In this document: positions 1,050-12,702 of the stretch, piece after piece | How positions within the stretch are numbered: the stretch's first letter is position 1 | Layout of the letters: each line of letters opens with the position of its first letter | Source: an uncultured Alistipes sp. | GTDB lineage: Bacteria; Bacteroidota; Bacteroidia; Bacteroidales; Rikenellaceae | Direction of reading: 5' to 3' | Assembly (NCBI GenBank): GCA_900546065.1 | Contig: URBK01000004.1 | Span: 1-64,000 of the forward strand | DNA length: 64,000 nt | Translations under genes and position numbers: made by a program | Notes under the pieces: generated by a model | Told to the model about the DNA's origin: nothing | The model's input: the letters and a program-made list of their open reading frames with translations, nothing else | Database searches by the model: none

Positions 1050-3416
1050 TTATTGTAGATATAGACTTTTTTGAAAGTTCACAAATGTATTCTTGGCAAT
1101 GGTTACGCCTCCGAGTTTAGACATCCCATCCTGAATGGAACCATATTTCATCTGCATGATTGTTGGGAGTTTGTCCATTCCGAGTTCCTCGACCCCCTCT
1201 TTGAGATAGAGGTTGATGATATAATCGACGAAATCTTGCTGCTCGGGAGTTAGTGAAGCCACAAAGTCTGTCGTCTTCTTCACTCGTTCGGACCGCTCTA
1301 TAGGTTCGATGTTGTAGGCAATGTACTCCAACACATCCAATAAATCGCACTCTTCGGCATCAATCAACGTGCGGATCTGCTTAAGGATTTCTGTGCCGTA
1401 TCCCGCATCGTCGAGCTTTTGCAGCAGAGCTTCTCGCGTTGATGGAGTGGCCCATTTTGCTTGTAAATCCTGAATGTCCGCAAAGAAGTGTGGTAATTCT
1501 CCGAACATTCCTTTCAGGAAATCTTCAGCGCTGACAGGCTTGCCGTCGGCATCCCAAAACATATCGGATTTAATATATCTTATTCGGCGTGTCCTGCCAT
1601 CCGAGAGGCGGATTTCCAACTTGTCGGGTTTTTCGCAGACGCACGGATATTGTCCGCATTTCTCGCATGGTTTTCCTTGCTTTTCGGGTTCCTGCTTTTG
1701 GTCTTTGACCTTGCTGTCCGTTTCTGATGCCTCTTCGTCTATGGGTTGTTCGTGATCACCGCAAGTGCAAGGCGTATTGCCGCAGAGAGGGCATACGGGG
1801 TCTCCGTCCCATGTTGGGTCTTGGAATTTCTCATACGCTTTCACGAAGTCGTATATTGTGAAGTAATACTTGCCATCAAACAGTCGTGTTCCTCGACCGA
1901 TAATCTGTTTGAACTCGATCATTGATCGAATGGGGCGTAATAGCACTATGTTGCGGACGTTCAGAGCATCGACTCCTGTCGACAGTTTCTGCGATGTGGT
2001 CAAAACGGTGGGTATAGTCTTCTCGTTATCCTGAAATTCTTTCAAATATTGTTCACCCAACGCTCCGTCGTTGGCAGTGACGCGGACAGCATAGTGAGAA
2101 TTGCCACCGTGAACCTGATTAATCATGTCGCGGATCTGTGCGGCATGACTCTGCGAGGCGCAGAACACGATTGTTTTTTCGTTGTCGCCGATGTACTTCA
2201 TGAACTCCCGCACACGGCTCATGTCGCGAGCCTTGATGGTAATGTCACCGCGGTAAAAATCCTCTTCCGTATAGACTTTGCCCTCCTCGACTTCTCCCGA
2301 GATCACCTCGTCCTCAGGACTGTAGATGTAGTCGTCGATGGTGCCCTGCATCTTGCAGTGGCGGAACGGCGTGAGGAAACCGTCGGCAATACCCTGCTTG
2401 AGCGAATATTGATATACGGGTTCTCCGAAATAGCGATACGTATCGGCATTGACGTCTCTCCGAGGCGTAGCCGTCAGACCGATCTGAATGGCAGAAGAGA
2501 AGTAGTTCATGATTTCACGCCACGAACTTTCGTCGTTAGCCCCTCCGCGATGACACTCATCTATGATCACAAGGTCAAAGAAGTCCTTTGGATATTGTCC
2601 GAATGTGTATTGCTTACCGTCATCTGTCATGAAAGTTTGGAATATTGAGAAGAATACGGACCCGTTTGTAGGAACCTTCCCGTTCTCCTTGATATCCTTA
2701 GGCGTGATTCGTACCAATGCATCTTGCTGAAATCCGAAGAACCCGTTGAATGCTTGGTCTGCAAGTATGTTTCGGTCCGCAAGGAATAGAATACGCGGTC
2801 GATTACCTGTCTTGCGTACATTCCATCTTGCTTGGAACAACTTATAGCATATTTGGAAGGCAATAAACGTTTTCCCTGTGCCTGTGGCGAGAGTCAGGAG
2901 AATGCGTTTCTGTCCATTGGCTATTGCCATGAGAGTCTTGTTTACGGCAACTTCCTGATAGTAACGGGGCTGCTTGGTGCCGTTTGAAAAGAACGGCTGT
3001 TCGTTGAAACGGTCGCGCCATTCGTCAGCATCGCCGAAAGTCTGCGTCCACAACTGTTGCGGTGTCGGGAAGCTCTCGATTCCGCCCTCCTTGCCCTTTT
3101 TCATGTCTATGGCATAGATGCTGTCGCCGTTGGTGGCATAGGCGTAGCGGATGTCGAGCATCGAGGCGTAAAGTTTGGCTTGCGCCACACCATCCGCGAC
3201 ATCCTTCTCATCGCTTTTCGCCTCCACGACGGCGAGCTTCACCCCTTTGTAGACCAAGACATAATCTGCCTTGAGCGGTTTTGGTTTCGAGGTTCGGGAG
3301 ATGCGACCGTTCGTAATACGAAATTCGGTTACTATGCGGCTGTCATCGACTTCGCTCCACCCTGCCGCACGCAGTTTGGGGTCTATTTTGTCCAAACGGG
3401 TCTGACTTTCGTTCAT
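1050..3416 (-). CDS. hsdR: type I restriction enzyme, R subunit
   Basis: This is the motor and nuclease subunit of a type I restriction system; it pumps unmodified DNA and cuts it. Near the N-terminus (about residues 50-72) a PD-(D/E)xK-type core is visible: D of ADYVLVYKG, then VVEAKSDEKD. The helicase part follows with Walker A LATGTGKTFIAFQ (about 175-187), the DEAD-like box DECHRGG (about 285) and GLTATPRRD (about 313), then the second RecA lobe with IGRGTRLFDGKYYF. At 788 residues it is of the shorter EcoEI-like size. Unusually, two copies of a Cys-rich knuckle (CPLCGNTPCTC near 540 and CEKCGQYPCVC near 582) sit between the motor and the C-terminal domain. It is the last gene of the operon, 3 bp after the membrane-protein gene. 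Confidence 0.95.
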   Translation of the reverse strand: MNESQTRLDKIDPKLRAAGWSEVDDSRIVTEFRITNGRISRTSKPKPLKADYVLVYKGVKLAVVEAKSDEKDVADGVAQAKLYASMLDIRYAYATNGDSIYAIDMKKGKEGGIESFPTPQQLWTQTFGDADEWRDRFNEQPFFSNGTKQPRYYQEVAVNKTLMAIANGQKRILLTLATGTGKTFIAFQICYKLFQARWNVRKTGNRPRILFLADRNILADQAFNGFFGFQQDALVRITPKDIKENGKVPTNGSVFFSIFQTFMTDDGKQYTFGQYPKDFFDLVIIDECHRGGANDESSWREIMNYFSSAIQIGLTATPRRDVNADTYRYFGEPVYQYSLKQGIADGFLTPFRHCKMQGTIDDYIYSPEDEVISGEVEEGKVYTEEDFYRGDITIKARDMSRVREFMKYIGDNEKTIVFCASQSHAAQIRDMINQVHGGNSHYAVRVTANDGALGEQYLKEFQDNEKTIPTVLTTSQKLSTGVDALNVRNIVLLRPIRSMIEFKQIIGRGTRLFDGKYYFTIYDFVKAYEKFQDPTWDGDPVCPLCGNTPCTCGDHEQPIDEEASETDSKVKDQKQEPEKQGKPCEKCGQYPCVCEKPDKLEIRLSDGRTRRIRYIKSDMFWDADGKPVSAEDFLKGMFGELPHFFADIQDLQAKWATPSTREALLQKLDDAGYGTEILKQIRTLIDAEECDLLDVLEYIAYNIEPIERSERVKKTTDFVASLTPEQQDFVDYIINLYLKEGVEELGMDKLPTIMQMKYGSIQDGMSKLGGVTIAKNTFVNFQKSLYLQ

Positions 3417-3419
3417 GGG

Positions 3420-3863
3420 CTATTTGTTATTTTCAGACATTAGTTTATACCAACCTCGTATGGTATCCTGCAGGACCAATATGAAGTACATAAAGGCGAA
3501 TACTATGATGGAATTCTCGATAATAGTAGCCGGCTTGGTTATGCAAGTTATATAATTTATTAGAGGATCTTTTATGATAAAGATTAAAAAAGTAGCGCTT
3601 ATAATGGATATTTCAATGATAGCACTTCTTTTCATGCTTTCAATAACACTTGATATTTTTGCATTAGTATGTTCTTTACTGTATTTGATTAGCTCATTTA
3701 AAAGAGCTCCCGTTAAAGTCGTGTGTAGAACTGTCAGTGTTAACAGAACAGGAATGATGCTCGGTTTGATAGTCTGAAGATAATCGGAGTTCCCTAATGT
3801 GGATATAAATCCCAACAATAGTGAGATAAAAGCATATCCAAAATATTTAAACAGATTATCCAT
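3420..3863 (-). CDS. small multi-pass membrane protein inside the RM operon
   Basis: This 147-aa protein has four hydrophobic stretches long enough to span a membrane: around residues 6-24, 33-55, 87-108 and 117-138. A charged segment (EHTNAKISSVIESMKRS) lies between the second and third. I recognise no family. It sits between the 288-aa unknown gene (7 bp upstream) and hsdR (3 bp downstream), so it must be co-transcribed with the restriction genes. Small four-helix membrane proteins act as membrane effectors or sensors in several anti-phage systems (for example KwaA of Kiwa), but no homology to any of them can be shown here. A membrane-acting partner of the preceding gene is inference. Confidence 0.7.
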   Translation of the reverse strand: MDNLFKYFGYAFISLLLGFISTLGNSDYLQTIKPSIIPVLLTLTVLHTTLTGALLNELIKYSKEHTNAKISSVIESMKRSAIIEISIISATFLIFIIKDPLINYITCITKPATIIENSIIVFAFMYFILVLQDTIRGWYKLMSENNK

Positions 3864-3870
3864 AGCCTTC

Positions 3871-4737
3871 TCACTTTATTTTGTTGAATATTGAAGCTAA
3901 TTTTTCCGTAGGTGATTCTAATAAATTAGCGTCATTTAGTACAATTTTAAGATTATCTATTTCTATGGTTTTAAAGGTTGTTCCCGTGTGGATATGATGT
4001 TTTATTCCTTTTGCTTTTATGGTGATGGTATGACCGCTGTCTGCGGAGGCTTTAGTCAGAGCTGATAGCTTGCGATTCTTCTTTTTCAATACCAATTGCT
4101 CCGATGGATCCGATTTAAACTCAAAGGTTGTGTTTTTACTGTTGGTTAAAGCACTGTTTTCAGCAATCATTTTATTGATACTCGATAGTGTACGGGGCAG
4201 ATTGGGGTAAGAGAAATTAAATCTTACCATGGTGATGCTTGGGTATCTGTCCACCAAACTCCAAAACTCGCTTTCTTGGAAGTCTCTCTTAATTTCTATT
4301 TGAAGCCCATATTTTTTTAAAAAGTGGGCATAGGTGAGAGACAATATATGCGCAACCACATTTGTGTCGCTGAATGCGGTGGAATTATCCTCTATTGCAA
4401 TGTGCTGTATATCGTGTCTGTTGTCAATAATAACTATACAACTTGGATGATGAGGATATTTGTTTACATGAAATTTCTCCTCTATTTGTTGGTAAGTATT
4501 ATTGGCTAATTGAAAGACGATAAAATGATCCCGATGATATAGAATTTTACTGTCATGATATTCGGTTCGCCCCTGATAGGGCTTATTACTATTTTGTAAG
4601 AAGTAAGATTCGAATATTTCCTGTTTTTTCTCCATGCGCTCTTTTACGGGCAGCATATTGTTATGAAACAAAGACCCTTGAACTGAGGTAATCGGAGAAA
4701 ACTGATAGGTGTAAATGATATATCGGGACATATTCAT
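3871..4737 (-). CDS. unknown 288-aa protein inside the RM operon
   Basis: This is a soluble protein with no signal peptide or membrane segment, and no family I can name. The N-terminal half looks alpha/beta (YIIYTYQFSPI, IVFQLANNTYQQI, CIVIIDNRHDI, followed by VVAHILSLTYAHFLKKYG). The C-terminal half is rich in Lys and beta strands (FEFKSDPSEQLVLKKKNRK, HTITIKAKGIKHHIHTGT). It starts 6 bp after the hsdS stop and ends 7 bp before the membrane-protein gene, so the spacing is operon-like. Extra genes placed between hsd genes are often guard or abortive-infection functions tied to the restriction complex (PrrC and RloC are the known cases). This protein does not resemble those nucleases. Role unknown. 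Confidence 0.75.
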   Translation of the reverse strand: MNMSRYIIYTYQFSPITSVQGSLFHNNMLPVKERMEKKQEIFESYFLQNSNKPYQGRTEYHDSKILYHRDHFIVFQLANNTYQQIEEKFHVNKYPHHPSCIVIIDNRHDIQHIAIEDNSTAFSDTNVVAHILSLTYAHFLKKYGLQIEIKRDFQESEFWSLVDRYPSITMVRFNFSYPNLPRTLSSINKMIAENSALTNSKNTTFEFKSDPSEQLVLKKKNRKLSALTKASADSGHTITIKAKGIKHHIHTGTTFKTIEIDNLKIVLNDANLLESPTEKLASIFNKIK

Positions 4738-4743
4738 AAAGGT

Positions 4744-5946
4744 TTATAGTTCGCCGTTAAATGCCTTTCGGAGGAGTGCTTGTTTCAGATCCTCGCATAA
4801 AACTATTGTCTTGTTGTAGTTCTCTTGGAGGACTTTGCAACACTCGTCGAGATTATCAAGTTGAGACACAATTCTTTTCTGATCACCAATTTCGATAATT
4901 GGAATGGATACTCCTTTAATTTTCTTTTGAGATATATTTGATTGTGCATTTCCTGTCGCTTGGGCTACTAAATATTCTTTTTGAGACAATATTACATAAT
5001 AAATGAAATCAGGTAAATATTTTTTATTTGGGAAAATTCCGCAAACAGCTTGATTTGTTGTTGATGGAATTTGAAGAATACCGACTTGTCCTGCGGTAGC
5101 TCCATACATCGCAACTACCACTGTGCTTTTAGGAAACCATTTTGCCGATGAGTTATCGACACCGGCTTGTGTTATGAATAATTCTGTATTATATATATTT
5201 CTTGAACACACCTCTCCACTTCGTAACCACGGAATATCCCCTCCTTCATAGTATTCCTTATACATTTTGTTCGGTGTTCCTCCTGCCCCCGTTTTACATT
5301 CTACTCCAATAGTAGAGAGCTGCCAGCTATTGTTGTTGAATTTTTCCTTGAGGATAGTTCGAAAGAGGTCTTTGGCGGCTTGAAGGCTCTTTTCGGCATT
5401 GGCTTTGAGTGCGTCGATCTTCGCAAACTCCGCATCCAATATCTTAACAATACGCTGTTGTTCTTGGAGCAATATGGGGAATGGTATTGACAAAGATGCT
5501 ATATATTCTTTAGGAATCCTTTTAAGTCCACAAGCACCTACCATTAGTTTTTTACCATTCTGCCTAAAGACGTCTGTCCTAAGATAGTAATATATATAAT
5601 CAGAGATTATCTCTTGAACGGAATTGCGTATTACAATGTATTCGCTTGATCCAAACCCAATGCCGTGCGCTAACTTTTTTACTATTGCAAGTTTCCCATT
5701 TTCAAAGCATGGGGTGACTTTCGCTATTAATATGTCACCTTCTTCAAAATATGTGTATCCTGAAGCAATGTCCTTATAAAGAAGCCTTTTCGAAGGGTAT
5801 GCGTATTTATTGCCGATTGTTAAATCCTCCATTGGCATAAAAGAGACCTCGAGAAGTGGGTCTATATCTTTAACCTTGGCTCTATTTTTTGAAGGTGCTA
5901 CTTTACAAATATCCCCAAGTTTTTTTATTGTCCACCCCTCTTTCAT
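4744..5946 (-). CDS. hsdS: type I restriction enzyme, S (specificity) subunit
   Basis: HsdS sets the DNA target of both methylation and cleavage. The 400-aa protein has the usual two target-recognition domains, each opened by a W-x3-x-L/IG-type motif (WTIKKLGDICKV at the start, WQLSTIGVECKTG near residue 206). Each is followed by a helical spacer: PILLQEQQRIVKILDAEFAKI in the centre and a matching helix at the C-terminus ending in ALLRKAFNGEL. The start codon overlaps the hsdM stop by 4 bp (ATGA), implying translational coupling. I see no second hsdS cassette or inverted repeat nearby, so no sign of specificity shuffling by inversion within this window. Confidence 0.95.
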   Translation of the reverse strand: MKEGWTIKKLGDICKVAPSKNRAKVKDIDPLLEVSFMPMEDLTIGNKYAYPSKRLLYKDIASGYTYFEEGDILIAKVTPCFENGKLAIVKKLAHGIGFGSSEYIVIRNSVQEIISDYIYYYLRTDVFRQNGKKLMVGACGLKRIPKEYIASLSIPFPILLQEQQRIVKILDAEFAKIDALKANAEKSLQAAKDLFRTILKEKFNNNSWQLSTIGVECKTGAGGTPNKMYKEYYEGGDIPWLRSGEVCSRNIYNTELFITQAGVDNSSAKWFPKSTVVVAMYGATAGQVGILQIPSTTNQAVCGIFPNKKYLPDFIYYVILSQKEYLVAQATGNAQSNISQKKIKGVSIPIIEIGDQKRIVSQLDNLDECCKVLQENYNKTIVLCEDLKQALLRKAFNGEL

Positions 5947-7388
5947 ATCATCCCAAGAATTTCGTCCAACAATTTTCGGCTGTCGTCTGCAAGGGCTTGG
6001 ATGTCGCCGACAATCTCTTGCGGGGTGCGCTCGTCAACCGTCTCGATCCGATGGGGATTCTTAACCGACAGATCGCAGTTCTCGTCAAGCTCGGAGACCG
6101 CCACACTCCACGAATTCTCGCTCTCCGCCTTGCTCTTTTGTAACGTGACAAACTCTTCGAGATCAGTTTCGGTGAGGGGATTGGTCTTGCCGAGCGTGCG
6201 GTTGAGGTTCAGTTGGTAGAACCACACATTGCGTGAGTGTTCTCCCTTCCTGAAGAAGAGAACAACGGTCTTTACTCCTGCCTGAAATACTCCTGACGGA
6301 AGGTCGAGAACGGTATGCAGGTTGCACTCCTCAAGCAGCTTGCGCCGCAGGGATATCGACGCATTATCGGTGTTGCTAAGGAATGTGTTTTTGATAACTA
6401 TGCCCGCTTCTCCGCCTGCCCGCAGATACTTTATGAAGTGTTCGAGGAAGAGATAAGCGGTCTCACTTGTCTTGATTGTGAAGTTTTGCTGCACCTCACG
6501 ACGCTCTTTGCCTCCGAATGGCGGGTTGGCAAGTATATAATCGAACTGATCCTTCGGTTGTACGTCGGCAAGGTTCTCGGTCAGAGTATTGGTGTAGATG
6601 ATATTGGGCGAATCGACTCCGTGCAGGATCATGTTCATCGTGCCGATAATGTACGGCAATACTTTATCGTCCTTGCCCGTGAAGGTCGACTCCTGAAGTA
6701 TGCGTTCATCCTCAGTGCGCTTGACATGATTATGCATATAGGTGTATGCCTCGCACAGAAAGCCCGCCGAGCCGCAGGCTCCGTCGTAGACCGTTTTCCC
6801 GATCTGAGGATTTACAATTTTTACAATGGTGCGGATCAAAGGACGTGGAGTATAGTATTCTCCTCCGTTGCGACCTGCGTTGCCCATGCGGTTGAGGCGG
6901 CTCTCATACCAATAGGTCATCTCGTGACGTTCTTCTGTGGTTTGGAATCGCAGATTGTTCACCTGTTCCAATATGTCACGAAGATTGTATCCGCTCTGAA
7001 TACGGTTATGAATCTCGGAGAAGATGACGCCTATCTTTATCTCGATGGATTTGGGGGCTCCCGTCTCTTTGAATTTGATCAAATATGGAAAAAGCTTGTT
7101 ATTGACAAACTCGATGAGATCATCGCCCACCAAGGCATTGGAGATGTCGTAGTTGCCTTGTGCATCGAGTGGAATCGCCCAATCATTCCATCGATAGCCT
7201 GCGGATATGATGGGTTTGTATGGCTTATCCTGAAGTTCGGCCGCAATCTGCCGCGTCTTTTCAAGATCATCCAAGTATTTGAGAAACAGAATCCATGAGG
7301 TCTGTTCCACGTAGTCCAATTCGCTTGTACACCCTTTGTCTGTGCGCAAGTAGTTGTCGAGGTTCTTGACTATTTGTTCGAAAGCCAT
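5943..7388 (-). CDS. hsdM: type I restriction enzyme, M (methyltransferase) subunit
   Basis: This N6-adenine DNA methyltransferase acts with HsdS to modify the host sites and, with HsdR, to restrict foreign DNA. Visible motifs are the entry segment GGEYYTPRPLIRTIVKI with the SAM-binding motif VYDGACGSAGFLCEAY (about residues 175-215) and the catalytic NPPFGG (about 286). The N-terminal helical region (residues 1-140) is that of the HsdM_N family. At 481 residues the length is normal. It follows a small ORF by 3 bp and overlaps hsdS by 4 bp. Confidence 0.95.
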   Translation of the reverse strand: MAFEQIVKNLDNYLRTDKGCTSELDYVEQTSWILFLKYLDDLEKTRQIAAELQDKPYKPIISAGYRWNDWAIPLDAQGNYDISNALVGDDLIEFVNNKLFPYLIKFKETGAPKSIEIKIGVIFSEIHNRIQSGYNLRDILEQVNNLRFQTTEERHEMTYWYESRLNRMGNAGRNGGEYYTPRPLIRTIVKIVNPQIGKTVYDGACGSAGFLCEAYTYMHNHVKRTEDERILQESTFTGKDDKVLPYIIGTMNMILHGVDSPNIIYTNTLTENLADVQPKDQFDYILANPPFGGKERREVQQNFTIKTSETAYLFLEHFIKYLRAGGEAGIVIKNTFLSNTDNASISLRRKLLEECNLHTVLDLPSGVFQAGVKTVVLFFRKGEHSRNVWFYQLNLNRTLGKTNPLTETDLEEFVTLQKSKAESENSWSVAVSELDENCDLSVKNPHRIETVDERTPQEIVGDIQALADDSRKLLDEILGMI

Positions 7389-7391
7389 GAG

Positions 7392-7610
7392 TTATTCGTT
7401 TTTTGGGGCGGTAACGAGTGTGCCTTTACGGATTATGCAAAGTCTGTTCGTGAATGGTTTTTCGGGTGTAATGCCGAAGTTGGCGAGGCTTTTATATTTG
7501 ATACCTATATCCTGTTTTCCAAAGTGGTCACATAGAGCCTTGATGCTGCCAAAGTAATAGTGTTTACCTTGCAGTTCGAGGTGAACTATGTGTCGTTCTT
7601 GTTTGTTCAT
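7392..7610 (-). CDS. small conserved-type protein heading the RM operon
   Basis: This is a 72-aa protein from the Met at 7610 (a Met codon directly before it, at 7613, is equally possible; the frame is open further up but only low-complexity codons are gained). It reads as a small globular protein: HIVHLELQGKHYYFGSIKAL, then CDHFGKQDIGIKY, then PFTNRLCIIRKG. I recall similar short proteins on Bacteroides mobile elements, but that is memory, not a search. It ends 3 bp before hsdM, so it is the operon leader gene. It could be a DNA-binding or plasmid/phage-type accessory protein. Function not known. Confidence 0.6.
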   Translation of the reverse strand: MNKQERHIVHLELQGKHYYFGSIKALCDHFGKQDIGIKYKSLANFGITPEKPFTNRLCIIRKGTLVTAPKNE

Positions 7611-7630
7611 CATATGAGCGCTATTTATAT

Positions 7631-7661
7631 CAAAAATATGAAAAAATGGAAAATAATCAAA
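7631..7661 (-). promoter_or_regulatory. promoter of the type I RM operon
   Basis: On the minus strand TTTG (7661-7658), 19 nt, then TATTTTTG (7638-7631) match the Bacteroidetes consensus TTTG-N19/21-TAnnTTTG exactly. The start codon follows about 20 nt after the -7 box, so the leader would be very short. Confidence 0.7.
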
Positions 7662-8057
7662 ATAAGCCATGTTATTTTAGTATTAATATTGTTTATGTTG
7701 AATATATTCCATATATTTATATGGTTGATGCATAAGTTTAAATGTCTTCATATAAGTAATTTTGTTTGAACACAAATGGAAGAAATCAAATATGTTATCT
7801 GTAGGGTTGATAATTGCTACAGGCTGAATATATGGATTTGATCCGTTAACGTTGTTTTGGTTCAGGAGTATGCGAGAACTTGTTATGCGGCATCGAATCC
7901 ACACGTAATTCTCTCATGTGTCTATGGCCCCTGATGCCATTTAAATATTGAGTTTTATTTTTGATTACAACTTATTCTTTGGCTATCATAATAGTATTAG
8001 AGTTATGTGAAATGTCAGGGGTAGCTGTATATGTTATTATTAACAATAAAGTTAATA
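7662..8057. other. divergent intergenic region, AT-rich
   Basis: This stretch between the leftward restriction operon and the rightward HTH-NADAR gene is very AT-rich and holds no reading frame I can support. Apart from the two promoters at its edges I see no strong hairpin, tRNA or repeat array. A regulator binding both promoters, such as the adjacent HTH protein, is a reasonable guess only. Confidence 0.5.
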
Positions 8058-8066
8058 TATATTTGA

Positions 8067-8098
8067 TTAGTTAGTATATATGTTAATTTGTATATTTG
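8067..8098 (+). promoter_or_regulatory. probable promoter of the HTH-NADAR gene
   Basis: TTAG (8067-8070), 20 nt, then TATATTTG (8091-8098). The -7 box is perfect and the -33 box has 3 of 4 bases. A second perfect TATATTTG lies at 8058-8065 but lacks a -33 box. The ATG at 8112 is only 13 nt after the first-named box. Confidence 0.5.
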
Positions 8099-8111
8099 TG
8101 AAAATATTGAT

Positions 8112-9284
8112 ATGAGAGAGCCAACCAATATAAGTTTGCGCATCAAAGATGTATTGTCCGAACGAGGTCTCACGCAGAAAGATCTTTGTTTGCGTTTGGG
8201 GATATCTGAAGTCTCGTTGTCGCGTCAATTGTCTAAGGGGTCAATGAGTCTTGGCAGATTGATTGATATTGCTAATGTTATTAATGTGGATGTTCGGGAT
8301 CTTATCTCAGAACCTATTAAAAACGAGGCGCGTGGTTATGTAGAGTATAACAATAAGATCTACTCATTTGAGACATTGAAAAAGTTGAAACAAATCGTAG
8401 ACATTATTGAACAAAAAGAATCTTCAGAAAAGTATCAGAAAGCAAAGGCCTTGGAAATTAAAAGGGAAGAAAAATCTATTGAGAGAAAGATTAAACCTAA
8501 AGCTATGCCTTTGTTTAATGATATTGTTTTAGATAGATTCGAGAACTATGATGCAACATTATTGAATTGTTGGTCATTTCGTAATGGAGGTGATGTTCGT
8601 AATAATGTGACCTTGGATTTGGGAAATATGTTATCTGATTATGCTTTTAGTGTGTTGGGAGTCCCGTTCTTAAATTCCGAAAGCGCATATATAGCAGGCG
8701 CTTATTCTTTACAAGGAGAGGAGTATTGTGCTATACAAAAACAATTGTCAACATGGAAAAATGGATATACCTCCAAGGCCATTTTCAGAAAACAAAAGAA
8801 TGAATACACCAAATTACTTAGGAAGGATTGGGAGCAATTTAATATTCAGTGGATGTTGTTCATTGTTTGGGAAAAGTGTAAATCCAATGAATCATTCCGT
8901 CAAATATTGATATCTATACCCAAAGATGCAATTATAATTGAGAATAGTACGTATGTGGGAGTAAAAGATCCGGCTAAGTCAACGAGTACAATATGGGGGT
9001 GTTGGAATGAGGATTTGATGGCTGCAAGAAAAATAATAGAATCTGATGTGGAAAATCGGACAACTCTGAATAACAAAAAGCAAATCGAATATCGGAAAAT
9101 GATAGAACGCAATAAGATTAACCATGTCGGAGTGTGGAAAGGGAAAAATCTTATGGGAAAAATTCTTAAGTTATGTCAAATTGCTCTTCTTACTAATACT
9201 AAGCCTCCTATAAACTATAACTTGCTTAATAGTTCGGGCATATTTTGGTTCGGGGTTGATATAAAAGAGTTTTTATTACAATAA
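8112..9284 (+). CDS. XRE-type HTH fused to a NADAR-like domain
   Basis: This is a 390-aa protein from ATG 8112 (a TTG at 8088 would add 8 residues but lies over the promoter). Residues 5-60 are a Cro/CI-type helix-turn-helix: LRIKDVLSERGLTQKDLC, then LGISEVSLSRQLSKG. A charged, probably helical linker follows (about 75-125). The C-terminal part reads as a NADAR (YbiA-like) domain: WSFRNGGDVRNNVT, SESAYIAGAYS, then W-x-M-x3-W with KSNESFRQIL, AIIIENSTYVG, STIWGCWNED, and the closing WKGKNLMGKILKLCQIAL. Characterised NADAR enzymes remove ADP-ribose from guanine, and some serve as antitoxins to DarT-like toxins. No ADP-ribosyltransferase is visible here, so the partner is unknown. The HTH suggests it also binds its own promoter. 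The NADAR call is by motif only. Confidence 0.75.
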   Translation: MREPTNISLRIKDVLSERGLTQKDLCLRLGISEVSLSRQLSKGSMSLGRLIDIANVINVDVRDLISEPIKNEARGYVEYNNKIYSFETLKKLKQIVDIIEQKESSEKYQKAKALEIKREEKSIERKIKPKAMPLFNDIVLDRFENYDATLLNCWSFRNGGDVRNNVTLDLGNMLSDYAFSVLGVPFLNSESAYIAGAYSLQGEEYCAIQKQLSTWKNGYTSKAIFRKQKNEYTKLLRKDWEQFNIQWMLFIVWEKCKSNESFRQILISIPKDAIIIENSTYVGVKDPAKSTSTIWGCWNEDLMAARKIIESDVENRTTLNNKKQIEYRKMIERNKINHVGVWKGKNLMGKILKLCQIALLTNTKPPINYNLLNSSGIFWFGVDIKEFLLQ

Positions 9285-9341
9285 GTTTGTGTTATACATT
9301 ATTCATAAGATTTTTGTTTGGATTATTTATTCATATAGCCC

Positions 9342-9372
9342 TTGGCAATGATGAATCTGCATATTATATTTG
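9342..9372 (+). promoter_or_regulatory. promoter of the ATPase-partner pair
   Basis: TTG (9342-9344, within CTTGG), 20 nt, then TATATTTG (9365-9372), a perfect -7 box. The ATG at 9391 follows after 18 nt. This implies that the ATPase pair can be transcribed independently of the HTH-NADAR gene. Confidence 0.6.
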
Positions 9373-9390
9373 TATTTAAATATTTTGTGT

Positions 9391-10572
9391 ATGAAGGAGT
9401 CGATTAAAATACGCAATCTCGGGCCTATTCGAGACCTGATAATAGAGGATATTAAACCTGCAACATTCTTTATAGGTGCATCAGCAAGTGGAAAAAGTAC
9501 GATACTGAAGGCAGTCGCATTGTTTCGCTATCTTTTTAAGATGCTATGTATCAGGTCTTATTTGAGGGATGCTAATATAAGTCGTAGCCCTTTTAGAATA
9601 AGAATGGAGTCTCTTTTGCGAAATTGTGGCTTTGATGTATTAATAAAAAACGATACATACATTGAATATACCGTATCAAATAATCAGACATATGTGTTGA
9701 AATTTGCAAATAAGAAATTGTCATATGAACCTAATTTGGTACAAAGAGATGATTTGGTGTTTTTTAAAGTATCGTTTATCTCGGAGAATAGAAATATGAT
9801 CCCAACATGGGCTTCACGAGTTGCGGCAAACAAAGGTGCTAAATTAGGGTTTTATTTTCATGAAACATATAATGATTTTGACGAAGCGACAAATTCTATT
9901 AAGGAAATGGAGATAGACTATTTCCGTGTGAAAATGAATGTGAAAAAGACTGACTTGGGAAAGCGATATTTGTTGACTTCGCTAAATCATGATTATGCAT
10001 CATTCGACTTGACAAAGGCATCGTCGGGTATGCAATCTTCTATCCCGATGTCTGTAATTGCGCGTTATTTTGCAACAGATTTCTCATTTAAGGATGCCTT
10101 TAGACGATCAGTTCTGAATTATTTGTATGAAAGTGATAACCTTACAGAGTTCCATCCTAATTTGGAGTTAGCGGATATGGATAAATATGTTCATATGCAT
10201 ATTGAGGAGCCTGAGGTTAGTGCAGATCCTGATACTCAAGTTGCCATAATTGATTCTTTAGTTAGGCAATGTTTCGTAACACATAATATGGATCGCGCCT
10301 TATCAATAATGGTAGCGACACATAGCCCATACATTGTAAATGAGCTTAATGTGTTAATAAGGGCATTTTATTATTCATTGAAAAAAGATTATGGAAATAA
10401 TAATCTTATTCCAAGGATAGATCCTTCAAATATAGCAGTCTATAAGGTTGTTGATGGTCATTTGGAGAATTTGATAGTTGAAGATAATGCGTCAGAACAG
10501 GTCGTTGTAAATGCGATTGATTTGTCTGAAACAATGGATCATATATACGAACGGTATGTTAGCCTCAGATAG
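9391..10572 (+). CDS. ABC/RecF-like AAA ATPase, putative defence component
   Basis: This is a 393-aa cytoplasmic ATPase of the RecF/SMC-like (AAA_15/21) group. The N-terminus, IKIRNLGPIRDLIIEDIKP, is the typical opening strand. Walker A is IGASASGKST (residues 28-37), a signature-like ASSGMQSS lies near 210, Walker B is HIEEPEVSADPDTQ (near 270), and the H-loop is VATHSPYIVNELN (near 309). No nuclease (TOPRIM) domain follows, which distinguishes it from OLD nucleases. The start chosen is the ATG at 9391; the frame extends upstream only through a TTG. Stop and next start are 5 bp apart. Pairs of such an ATPase with a small partner are common in anti-phage systems (Septu, PARIS, AbiL); which of these this belongs to, if any, I cannot say. 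Confidence 0.85.
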   Translation: MKESIKIRNLGPIRDLIIEDIKPATFFIGASASGKSTILKAVALFRYLFKMLCIRSYLRDANISRSPFRIRMESLLRNCGFDVLIKNDTYIEYTVSNNQTYVLKFANKKLSYEPNLVQRDDLVFFKVSFISENRNMIPTWASRVAANKGAKLGFYFHETYNDFDEATNSIKEMEIDYFRVKMNVKKTDLGKRYLLTSLNHDYASFDLTKASSGMQSSIPMSVIARYFATDFSFKDAFRRSVLNYLYESDNLTEFHPNLELADMDKYVHMHIEEPEVSADPDTQVAIIDSLVRQCFVTHNMDRALSIMVATHSPYIVNELNVLIRAFYYSLKKDYGNNNLIPRIDPSNIAVYKVVDGHLENLIVEDNASEQVVVNAIDLSETMDHIYERYVSLR

Positions 10573-10577
10573 AAAAA

Positions 10578-11204
10578 ATGAAGGATTTGTTGTATAATTA
10601 TTATGGCATAGCATATAATAGCCTTGTAAAACACGATGTCACAAGTGTGGAATGTGGGGAGATAAAGTTTGAGATTAAAGATAAAGAAGATCAGATTGTA
10701 TGTAAAAATGGTAATGGTATATCTGTTTTTAGTAATCCTCGGAAGAAAAAGATTACCATTATAGACTTTGAAGATTATATTAATAAATGGAGGGGTCAAG
10801 CAGGACAGGGTAAGCGGTGCGATTTTATTCTTTATGATGATGTAGACTATGTCGTATTGAATGAATTGACAACGTGTCAAGAGCGTTTTTTGGATAATCA
10901 CTACAGGGATGGTAGGGAGGTGACGGGTAAACGGAGTCATGCCATATGTCAAATTCAAGAATCGATTAATAAATTGTGTCATGTTCCTGAAATAGATGAT
11001 TATATTAAAAAGAAGCCTAATAAGGTGGGCTTGTTTTCTTATAAAATAAAAGAGGACGCCAACGTAGCCAATGAGGTAAATAATACGATGGCTCAGTTTA
11101 GATCAGTAAATAGGATATATGAAAATGTATCCTCATCAAATGTTTTTACTAAAGGATTTGTGTTTGAGCAACGAATTTACCCGGAAGCATTTAATTTCAA
11201 ATAA
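10578..11204 (+). CDS. partner of the ATPase, possible PD-(D/E)xK-like fold
   Basis: This 208-aa protein lies 5 bp after the ATPase gene and is surely co-expressed with it. I recognise no named family. The central part (residues 75-100) reads GQGKRCDFILYDDVDYVV followed by LNELTTC: an Asp (D82), a hydrophobic beta hairpin, then E96-L-T98. This is the layout of a PD-(D/E)xK nuclease core, with Thr where the catalytic Lys normally stands. It is followed by a basic helix (GKRSHAICQIQESINKL). The protein could be a nuclease with a displaced Lys, an inactive nucleic-acid binder, or unrelated. In two-gene ATPase systems the small protein is usually the effector, so effector is my best inference. 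No signal peptide or membrane segment. Confidence 0.7.
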   Translation: MKDLLYNYYGIAYNSLVKHDVTSVECGEIKFEIKDKEDQIVCKNGNGISVFSNPRKKKITIIDFEDYINKWRGQAGQGKRCDFILYDDVDYVVLNELTTCQERFLDNHYRDGREVTGKRSHAICQIQESINKLCHVPEIDDYIKKKPNKVGLFSYKIKEDANVANEVNNTMAQFRSVNRIYENVSSSNVFTKGFVFEQRIYPEAFNFK

Positions 11205-11231
11205 AAAATAATAGGGGTTCCCTATTATTTT
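11205..11231. terminator. bidirectional terminator between partner gene and integrase
   Basis: A 12-bp perfect stem (AAAATAATAGGG / CCCTATTATTTT) with a 3-nt loop. The A-rich and T-rich flanks let it work in both directions, matching the convergent genes ending at 11204 and 11248. Confidence 0.8.
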
Positions 11232-11247
11232 GGGGAGGTACCCTATT

Positions 11248-12657
11248 TCAATCCAAGAGCGTTACCGCTTGATTTTGTTGATCTTGTTTCATTGAGTTAT
11301 GATAGCGGTGAAAGGCCTTCGAACCTGCGGTGTGTCCGCTCATGGTAGCAATTATTGAGTCAGTTATCCCTTTTCCAACCAATACGTCAATAAAGCAGGA
11401 TCGAGCAAATTTGCTTTTTGCGAGTTCATAAAGTGGTTTATATTCCGCTTCCCCATAGGCATTGTATGTAGTCACGATGCGGTTTAAGCCTGCCGCTTTG
11501 AATAGTCTTTTTAGTTGGGTGTTGTATGTTTGCTTATTCTTAGGAAAGAGAAACAACGGCGTATATTTTGTAGGTTCTTCAGCCCTATGTCGGTTGAGAA
11601 TATCAAGTGCTTTGGGCGATAGGGGAATGCGGCACTCTACTGCAGTAATATCCTTGGTCTTTTTGGGGTAGTAATGTATGGAGGTTACCCCATTTTCTAC
11701 GATGAGGTTCTTGTACTTAAGATTGAAGAAGTCCGATACGCGACAACCTATGGAGCATTGGAAATAAAAGAGGTCTCGGATATATGACAGTTCTGTATCA
11801 GTTAATTCACATTTAAGCAACTGCCGTTTTTCTTCCTGAGTGAGAGTAATGGGGTCTCCGTACATGGCTGTAGGTACAGTATAATCTGTAATATTTCCAT
11901 ATTCGGAAACACCATACTGTGTTCTGCACCACTTAAAGAAGTGTTTGGCTACGGTCATTATCTTTGATATTGAATTGCGATTCTTTTTACGTGTTCGATG
12001 CATTGGATTTCGACAGACACCCTGTCCTTCATCATTTTGCAGGAAGCATTGAAAATCCGTTAACATTTTTGCATCGCATTTTTTGAAAGTGATTTCTTCT
12101 TTTCGCCATATTTCGAAGTTTTTCAGATGATTCATGGCATTTATGCGGGTATTGTTTCTTCCTTGTGATACTGTAGCATCTTTACAATACAATGCAGCCA
12201 ATGCCCAAAAGGAATTTTGTTCTTGGGAGGGTTTCTCTATGTTTGGCGTATCTCGTTTTTTGCAATCCTCTTTAGTTTTCCCGATCTCTTTATCCAACGC
12301 CTTAATCAAATCTTCTTTGGATATGGTTTCTACTTTTTGCGAGAGGCTTAACAGTTTCCCACTAATCAAATCTAATGTACGATTGACCTCTGCGTATTGC
12401 ACGATGCGTGTGCGCTTTTTTGCAGTACAATTCTTGTGAATGCCGAATGAGCGATTCCCGTCGCCGCGAGATGCCTCATTTCGATTCCCAAACCACGCAC
12501 TTCTTTGTGCGGAATATCCTGTGAAGTAATGAATCTCCTGTTGTCGATTCACCCGTATTATTGCGCTGATTTGATAATACGGTTCCGCGCTGACCGCTTT
12601 CTTTGATACATAGACATTCTTTTTGATGTCTAACCTGAAACGAATACTGTACTCCAT
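11248..12657 (-). CDS. tyrosine integrase of the island
   Basis: A 469-aa tyrosine recombinase from Met 12657 (the upstream Met at 12696 would add a poorly conserved 13-residue tail). The N-terminal region (about 1-130) is the arm-binding part typical of Bacteroidetes integrases, then a SAM-like core-binding domain (FWALAALYCKD ... FEIWRKEEI). The catalytic domain has Arg in GCRVSDFFNLKY, Lys in YYPKKTKD, the second Arg in AKSKFARSCF, His in MSGHTAGSKAF and the nucleophile Tyr in HRYHNS. The first His of the usual HxxR box is Lys here. It lies at one edge of the AT-rich island, the usual place for the integrase of an integrative element, and directly faces the core genome. Confidence 0.9.
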   Translation of the reverse strand: MEYSIRFRLDIKKNVYVSKKAVSAEPYYQISAIIRVNRQQEIHYFTGYSAQRSAWFGNRNEASRGDGNRSFGIHKNCTAKKRTRIVQYAEVNRTLDLISGKLLSLSQKVETISKEDLIKALDKEIGKTKEDCKKRDTPNIEKPSQEQNSFWALAALYCKDATVSQGRNNTRINAMNHLKNFEIWRKEEITFKKCDAKMLTDFQCFLQNDEGQGVCRNPMHRTRKKNRNSISKIMTVAKHFFKWCRTQYGVSEYGNITDYTVPTAMYGDPITLTQEEKRQLLKCELTDTELSYIRDLFYFQCSIGCRVSDFFNLKYKNLIVENGVTSIHYYPKKTKDITAVECRIPLSPKALDILNRHRAEEPTKYTPLFLFPKNKQTYNTQLKRLFKAAGLNRIVTTYNAYGEAEYKPLYELAKSKFARSCFIDVLVGKGITDSIIATMSGHTAGSKAFHRYHNSMKQDQQNQAVTLLD

Positions 12658-12702
12658 CTTTTTTATAAAATATGTGGAGTAGGCCCCAAAAGTCAAGAGG
12701 CG

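Follow-up and report, generated by a model that had tools for sequence, protein, structure and literature searches.

RexAB is usually thought of as a prophage system. Among abortive-infection systems it was the earliest to be associated with phage defence, and its activation by T4rII is unexplained (PMC12894663). With DefenseFinder, RexAB was detected mostly on prophages and in Proteobacteria alone, and the tool's own models may limit its detection (PMC9090908). Here we describe a gene pair, probably of RexAB type, that was located inside a type I restriction operon of an uncultured Alistipes sp. (Bacteroidales). The window, i.e., the whole stretch of DNA that was analysed, comprised 64,000 nucleotides (positions 1 to 64,000 of contig URBK01000004.1), and coordinates given without a locus name refer to it.

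RexA homologues were reported to dimerise and to bind DNA non-specifically, but the exclusion of T4rII was not correlated with DNA binding (PMC11077077). In Pseudomonas putida, cells that overexpressed RexA stopped growing, took up dye and leaked slightly in a RexB-dependent manner, and no depolarisation was detected (PMC12894663). Defence by the actinophage CarolAnn required both gp44 and gp43 (PMC6426606), and the authors of the CarolAnn and Sbash studies proposed that the soluble part opens an ion channel formed by the membrane part (PMC6426606, PMC6426596).

A gene pair between hsdS and hsdR

The operon was located on the minus strand in the order hsdM, hsdS, a gene for 288 amino acids (aa), a 147-aa gene and hsdR, with junctions of -4, 6, 7 and 3 bp. 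Its restriction genes were hsdM (5943..7388; type I adenine methyltransferase, 481 aa; PF02384, PADLOC MTase_I), hsdS (4744..5946; type I specificity subunit, 400 aa; PF01420, PADLOC Specificity_I), which lay 6 bp upstream of the pair, and hsdR (1050..3416; EcoAI/FtnUII-type, 788 aa; NF046051, PF04851, PF08463), which lay 3 bp downstream. Pfam and PADLOC confirmed all three identities, as did NCBIfam for HsdR, which scored 783.6 bits against the EcoAI/FtnUII model NF046051 (cut-off 550). Thus, two non-hsd genes were found inside an otherwise intact hsd operon. The first (3871..4737) encoded a soluble protein, RexA-like by predicted fold and proposed here as a DNA-binding infection sensor, and the second (3420..3863) encoded a membrane protein with four helices, which resembles RexB in size, number of helices and gene order and is proposed as a membrane effector. 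Coordinates, hydropathy and models all agreed with the first-pass annotation, which had placed a soluble and a four-helix protein between hsdS and hsdR with gaps of 6, 7 and 3 bp.

In phage lambda, rexA precedes rexB and the products have 279 and 144 aa; the window pair had the same order and products of 288 and 147 aa. Since gene order and sizes matched those of rexA-rexB, we read the pair as a RexAB-like abortive-infection system. It is reasonably likely that a module of this kind is embedded as cargo in the type I operon and works by the mechanism proposed below. Moreover, no gap from hsdM to hsdR exceeded 7 bp, and therefore the pair is probably expressed together with restriction.

Predicted folds of the two proteins

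The 288-aa protein had no hydrophobic stretch (hydropathy, stricter cut-off) and was matched by 106 database proteins, near-identical copies included. Neither inserted protein had a match in Pfam at E up to 1 or in PADLOC at E up to 10, and NCBIfam gave a single match far below its cut-off; the description of both genes as unrecognised was thus borne out at the level of family models. In the PDB, sequence searches with the single 288-aa sequence and with profiles of both proteins found nothing relevant. PHROGs gave only weak matches of unknown function for the two proteins, and the viral contigs searched with either alignment gave 65 and 48 pattern matches and no relative. The DUF4747 family was similarly uninformative: three of the 106 database matches carried a precomputed PF15931.11 tag that was not reproduced when those three were scanned, the window protein had no match, and a DUF4747 genome search was empty in 60 of 60 genomes, with the control genomes giving no match either.

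Structure prediction had been suggested for both proteins. The model of the 288-aa protein (predicted local distance difference test, pLDDT, 86) comprised seven strands, an inserted four-stranded domain and C-terminal helices, which fits the described RexA topology. The predicted fold was the split two-domain fold of lambda RexA and of the kinetochore proteins CENP-N/Chl4 and Iml3. In a second-look structural alignment, the top 14 rows were inner-kinetochore chains and lambda RexA (rank 4). The titles of the kinetochore rows named CENP-N or Iml3, or else the CCAN/Ctf19 complexes, with chain letters N and E that we take to stand for CENP-N/Chl4. Foldseek alone ranked human CCAN chain N first and chain L third (presumably CENP-N and CENP-L), with weak E-values. 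The CENP-N/Chl4/Iml3 group was described as relatives of RexA by Adams et al. (PMC11077077). Accordingly, the two-domain fold of a RexA sensor was present in the predicted model. As a separate observation, five uncharacterised phage proteins of 277-322 aa in BFVD (A0A8S5PCY0, A0A8S5QGP5, A0A8S5S8L2, A0A8S5MSR5 and A0A6J5Q1Z2) matched the 288-aa model and may be unrecognised RexA-like phage genes.

The 147-aa protein had four hydrophobic stretches by hydropathy (residues 4-22, 36-54, 80-98 and 113-131), the first of which failed the stricter cut-off, and their spacing was similar to that of the four stretches of lambda RexB. Its AlphaFold2 model had four helices (pLDDT 82.3), and the structural matches of this model were generic helix bundles. 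A four-helix membrane protein was thus encoded beside the proposed sensor, as in RexAB. With regard to the cytoplasmic location of both termini and of the central loop that is expected of a RexAB-type protein, its basic residues were commonest between stretches 2 and 3 (five K/R, three D/E) and at the C-terminus (three and two), these differences being small. Its profile matched 79 database proteins, near-identical copies included, and the nearly invariant residues of the family included R79, just before the third hydrophobic stretch and inside helix 3 in the model. In the Sbash study, gp31 no longer supported defence with the substitutions R70A and D73A, which lie in its central cytoplasmic region (PMC6426596); any correspondence of R79 to R70 or D73 is by rough position alone.

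The first-pass annotation had seen a likeness to Kiwa (KwaA/KwaB). PADLOC-DB, which should include models of KwaA and KwaB, gave no match at the permissive threshold given above; moreover, there was no Kiwa entry among the structural rows listed, which pointed instead to RexA, CENP-N/Chl4 and Iml3. What the pair shared with Kiwa was only the general plan of a small membrane protein and a soluble protein, and a Kiwa-like identity is hardly credible. Anticodon nucleases of the PrrC and RloC kind, which carry ATPase and nuclease domains, were rejected as well. As had been noted from the sequence, their domains were absent: neither protein contained a Pfam domain, and four membrane helices and a RexA-like fold were found instead.

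Sequence comparison with RexA and RexB

The Pfam models of RexA (PF15969) and RexB (PF15968), against which lambda RexA and RexB scored 326.8 and 305.4 bits, had no match in the window pair at E up to 1. Likewise, hhalign of the RexA-like profile with lambda RexA, with the CarolAnn gp44/Sbash gp30/Sejanus gp46 group and with Butters gp30/Toast gp42 gave nothing significant. The best partner was the CarolAnn group (P 0.082, residues 118-174 against 127-179, which are like positions), and against a profile of 168 RexA-like sequences this group reached P 0.019 with a probability of 2.4 %, again not significant. The profiles in these comparisons were shallow. Under the same settings, comparisons among accepted RexA homologues reached P 0.0075 (for Butters/Toast with lambda), 0.062, 0.31 and 0.46, with probabilities of at most 5.2 %, and unrelated window proteins gave P 0.12 to 0.74. 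As accepted homologues hardly did better in this test, we describe the pair as RexAB-like on the grounds of its fold and architecture and do not assign it to the Pfam families.

RexA-like loci and their partners in Bacteroidales

A scan of GTDB representatives yielded 21 RexA-like loci. Whole-genome searches were positive in 7 of 393 genomes in the order of genome G001, 5 of 398 in its family and 32 of 399 in the family of genome G002 (36 places), these samples overlapping. After the three weakest of the 36 places (G894, G908 and G1174:C50) were left out and the duplicates L048, L054, L056 and L081 (of L001, L004, L005 and L021) were removed, 63 loci became 59 Bacteroidales loci, the window included. 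Near-copies were still among them, e.g., L084/L085, L087/L088, L012/L013, and L017-L019 with L021.

The membrane partner was found directly 3' of the RexA-like gene in five of the 59 loci (the window, L001, L002, L003 and L005). All five had the RexA-like gene first, as in lambda, and they formed a single clade with support of 99/96 in a tree of 58 rows, from which L053 (159 aa) was omitted. In 201 sampled genomes of the G002 family, the membrane protein occurred in one, that of L003. The next loci by score, L004 and L055, were without it.

It had been asked whether the pair always sits between hsdS and hsdR, and this did not hold, as only the window's pair did so. Two other pairs followed type II-like methyltransferase genes. 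Namely, in L001 the pair came after a fused C5/N6 methyltransferase and a protein that matched HNH below the threshold, in a run whose gaps did not exceed 30 bp, and in L003 it was preceded at 110 bp by a unit of two genes, the first of which encoded an Eco57I-type methyltransferase. In the remaining two no restriction gene was detected: L002 had the pair after a Schlafen/AlbA_2 gene, and in L005 it was flanked by a Bro-N gene and by a SIR2 gene that matched STAND weakly. What did stand was a broader association, since the wider RexA-like family was concentrated beside restriction genes (see below).

Most RexA-like genes had a different partner. A same-strand gene of at least 90 aa was present at position +1 in 52 of the 58 non-window loci, and four of these encoded the membrane protein. 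From the other 48, we clustered 40 (fragments, an HsdR and some near-copies were omitted), and 37 of the 40 formed one family by single linkage. Its members looked soluble by hydropathy, L075 excepted, and were mostly 240-325 aa in size. This unnamed family (L014:8852-9613, L062:6883-7845 and 35 relatives) may provide an alternative effector. The +1 protein of L014 had no Pfam match. The possibility that the family (members in L009-L021) was a second RexA copy found no support, as it did not match the RexA-like profile (P 0.63).

The existence of relatives without a membrane partner, many of them beside this different protein, would also suit reversed roles, in which the antiviral action would come from the soluble protein, kept at the membrane by its partner until infection, as reported for Butters gp30/gp31. 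Butters gp31 is also a four-pass protein and was reported not to be required for defence (PMC12894663, PMC7542560). On the other hand, the accounts of CarolAnn, Sbash, lambda and P. putida report that both parts were needed and propose the membrane protein as the effector, and we therefore regard reversed roles as unlikely.

Linkage to restriction genes

The RexA-like family was clearly concentrated beside restriction genes. A methyltransferase or HsdS gene was located within 3.5 kb in 29 of the 59 loci, or in 29 of the 49 that had at least 3 kb upstream. In 22 of these it was on the same strand and in seven on the opposite strand only (L058, L075, L079, L080, L082, L086 and L088). The count of 29 consisted of 25 loci from a uniform scan and four added by Pfam or homology; L015 was included by its 76 % identity to L012, and L061 (HsdR-like match only) and L051 (methyltransferase 5.6 kb off) were not counted.

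As a control we used Abi_2, an abortive-infection gene of the same genome family, taking one place each in 40 of the 78 genomes with a match. The uniform local search within 3.5 kb was positive in 25 of 59 RexA-like loci and in none of the 40 Abi_2 loci (Fisher p 1.9e-7, the loci being not fully independent). When only loci with 3.5 kb on both sides were considered, the ratio was 21 of 43 to 0 of 33. These figures rely on one thin control family, the seeds of the methyltransferase search were drawn from RexA-like loci, and the C5 matches in L064 and L078 were short open reading frames (140 and 245 aa). The linkage also depended on position. With conservative local models, restriction genes occupied 25 of 276 places at positions -3 to +2 and 4 of 78 at -4 and -5, as against 0 of 62 at -6 to -9 and 0 of 278 at +3 to +9. 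Mere clustering in defence islands was weakened as an explanation by this positional profile and by the Abi_2 control.

The types of restriction genes were diverse. Pfam was searched with 99 proteins of 250 aa or more that were encoded upstream on either strand (positions -1 to -3) in the loci other than the window, giving, with overlapping families, 10 C5 methyltransferases, 7 N6_Mtase, 6 N6_N4_Mtase, 5 Eco57I, 2 D12, 2 HpaII and 2 EcoRII endonucleases, 3 HNH_2, 3 ResIII and 2 Methylase_S. For 98 far proteins, there was one MmeI methyltransferase among the first 25 of 169 families, and single restriction matches may lie among the others. Additionally, all ten candidates chosen by motif or weak similarity matched methyltransferase families, including EcoP15I-type (type III-like) and EcoRI-type. 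On the tree, four label changes were needed for the four type I rows outside the membrane clade, five for ten C5 rows and seven for twelve N6/N4 rows; well-supported branches forced at least two, five and five of them, respectively. Since the labels changed so often, the association probably arose repeatedly. We also observed one further, distant association with type I genes, in L049, where a RexA-like gene (L049:7833-8705) that lacked a membrane partner lay 28 bp ahead of an HsdR gene, which in turn preceded an HsdS gene.

A bolder reading is that the RexA-like sensor of Bacteroidales is a general second-line partner of whatever restriction system adjoins it (types I, II and III-like were seen), that it reads the state in which restriction leaves, or fails to leave, the DNA (ends, stalled translocation or surviving phage DNA), and that it fires at least two kinds of effector, namely the four-helix membrane protein in the window's clade and the +1 protein of about 240-325 aa in most other loci. 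We put this forward as a speculative and rather doubtful generalisation. A restriction-tied RexA-like family in Bacteroidales offers a way to ask what RexA senses.

Probable exchange slots around the pair

The segment formed by hsdS and the pair (3420..5946, minus strand) differed in guanine-cytosine (GC) content from its surroundings and might be an exchanged cassette. GC was 38.0 % in hsdS, 35.9 % in the 288-aa gene and 32.4 % in the 147-aa gene, compared with 49.2 % in hsdM, 49.1 % in hsdR and 56.1 % in the window. Such a low-GC segment between hsdM and hsdR of 49 % fits a swap of hsdS together with the pair, or a low-GC insertion.

It is a real possibility, although we give it somewhat less than an even chance, that the RexAB-like pair is independent cargo, merely carried because recombination hot spots lie both in the hsdS-hsdR interval and just ahead of RexA-like genes. 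According to one report, DarTG2 sits between hsdS and hsdR in enteropathogenic Escherichia coli (EPEC), an RNA-binding/ATPase pair does likewise elsewhere, and the interval was called a potential recombination hotspot (PMC12255303); these occupants of the same slot favour independent cargo. Our own survey pointed in the same direction. Relatives of the window's HsdR (E up to 1e-100) were found in 45 of 344 genomes at 51 places, 30 of which were viewed. hsdS directly preceded hsdR in five (L089, L098, L101, L102 and L105), another five (L093, L094, L095, L096 and L100) had an unidentified gene of 142-308 aa between a recognised hsdS and hsdR, and in the rest the 1.5 kb flank was too short or hsdS too diverged for judging the slot. 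Neither inserted gene occurred in any of the 30. The slot genes of L093, L094, L095, L096 and L100 are themselves candidates for further embedded defence genes.

The spot upstream of the RexA-like gene also varied. L017, L018, L019, L021 and L014 were homologous farther upstream and again from the RexA-like gene onward, with homology resuming at its start codon or at most five bases from it. Between these flanks the filling was different in each locus and about 3.3-6.5 kb long (L017:2586-7875 and the matching stretches); a methyltransferase was detected by local search in three fillings (L017, L018 and L014) and none in L019 and L021. Shared flanks with differing fillings suggest that an exchange slot, in which restriction genes are frequent, adjoins the RexA-like gene. 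This variation up to the start codon, together with the pairs of L002 and L005, agrees with independent cargo. However, mere carriage leaves unexplained that the restriction linkage was not common to Abi_2, and in the window the gaps of 6 and 7 bp leave little room for a promoter of the pair's own, although one inside hsdS is conceivable.

DarTG2 is a toxin-antitoxin system, and its use of the same slot raises the idea that the window pair, too, is of toxin-antitoxin or addiction type and serves to stabilise the operon. We consider this very unlikely, as neither protein matched a toxin or antitoxin family in Pfam, NCBIfam or PADLOC, and CarolAnn gp43 or gp44 alone was reported not to be toxic.

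Neighbouring genes

The restriction operon was part of a larger region of unusual composition. The ten genes at 1050-12696 had GC contents of 32-49 %, and by eye a transposase remnant (3-617) and an integrase-like open reading frame (11248-12696) flanked the low-GC region. Low GC and these by-eye labels make 1050-12696 look like an acquired island. A 92-aa open reading frame without a Pfam match (7392-7670), located 3 bp upstream of hsdM, might be a small operon regulator. A helix-turn-helix protein with a NADAR-like match below the cut-off was encoded at 8088-9284, divergent from the restriction operon. Farther on, a 400-aa AAA ATPase and, after it, a 208-aa protein that matched SduA_C weakly and below the threshold (9370-11204) looked like a second two-gene defence candidate.

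Proposed mechanism and comparison with known systems

In the mechanism that we favour, the 288-aa protein would, by analogy with RexA, be a dimeric, non-specific DNA clamp that responds to DNA of the phage, to DNA-protein complexes or to a protein made by the phage. The 147-aa protein is modelled as a four-helix unit of the inner membrane and, by analogy, may oligomerise. Once activated, the sensor would engage it, and a leaky membrane, a stop of growth and an aborted infection would follow. If co-expressed with restriction, the pair would form a second line once restriction fails, and the restriction complex might contribute a signal; functional coupling of this sort is plausible, although unproven. 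The first-pass annotation had likewise expected membrane damage from a soluble sensor and a membrane effector in the restriction operon, and this agrees with P. putida RexAB, by analogy with which such damage is the likely output (PMC12894663). The design is of the RexAB type and not, as had been supposed, a new kind of guard. PrrC and RloC are guards of restriction; if our reading is true, the pair would be their membrane-acting counterpart.

The setting distinguished the window pair from the known RexAB systems. Lambda rexAB is beside the CI repressor, while the window pair was inside a type I restriction operon. The actinophage pairs CarolAnn gp44/gp43 and Sbash gp30/gp31 (DUF4747-like and four-transmembrane) also consist of two genes, soluble then four-transmembrane; however, their proteins are larger (370 and 178 aa in CarolAnn), they are prophage-borne, and their sequence match was not significant. 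RexABpp of P. putida (PP_5643/PP_5644) is an operon of a RexA-like DNA-binding protein and a four-helix membrane effector (PMC12894663), but its context is a prophage, and it is likened to the window pair by description, not by sequence. In contrast, DarTG2 of the RptR island in EPEC is unrelated cargo, a toxin-antitoxin system, but as a second defence system it occupies precisely this slot of a type I operon.

A precedent for a link between this kind of pair and restriction-modification systems was the DUF4747/CarolAnn operons after capK-capS. There, the system followed 17 of 443 capKS loci, and 88 of 443 capKS loci were downstream of a restriction-modification system (PMC13373217). In those loci the regulator pair intervenes, whereas the window pair was inside the hsd operon itself. 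The kind of system and the slot were both already known. Apart from the DUF4747/CarolAnn operons in capKS loci, some of which follow restriction-modification systems (PMC13373217), our searches of open-licence PMC papers, mostly covered as listings, found no report of the two combined, of their occurrence in Bacteroidales or of a link between the whole family and several restriction types.
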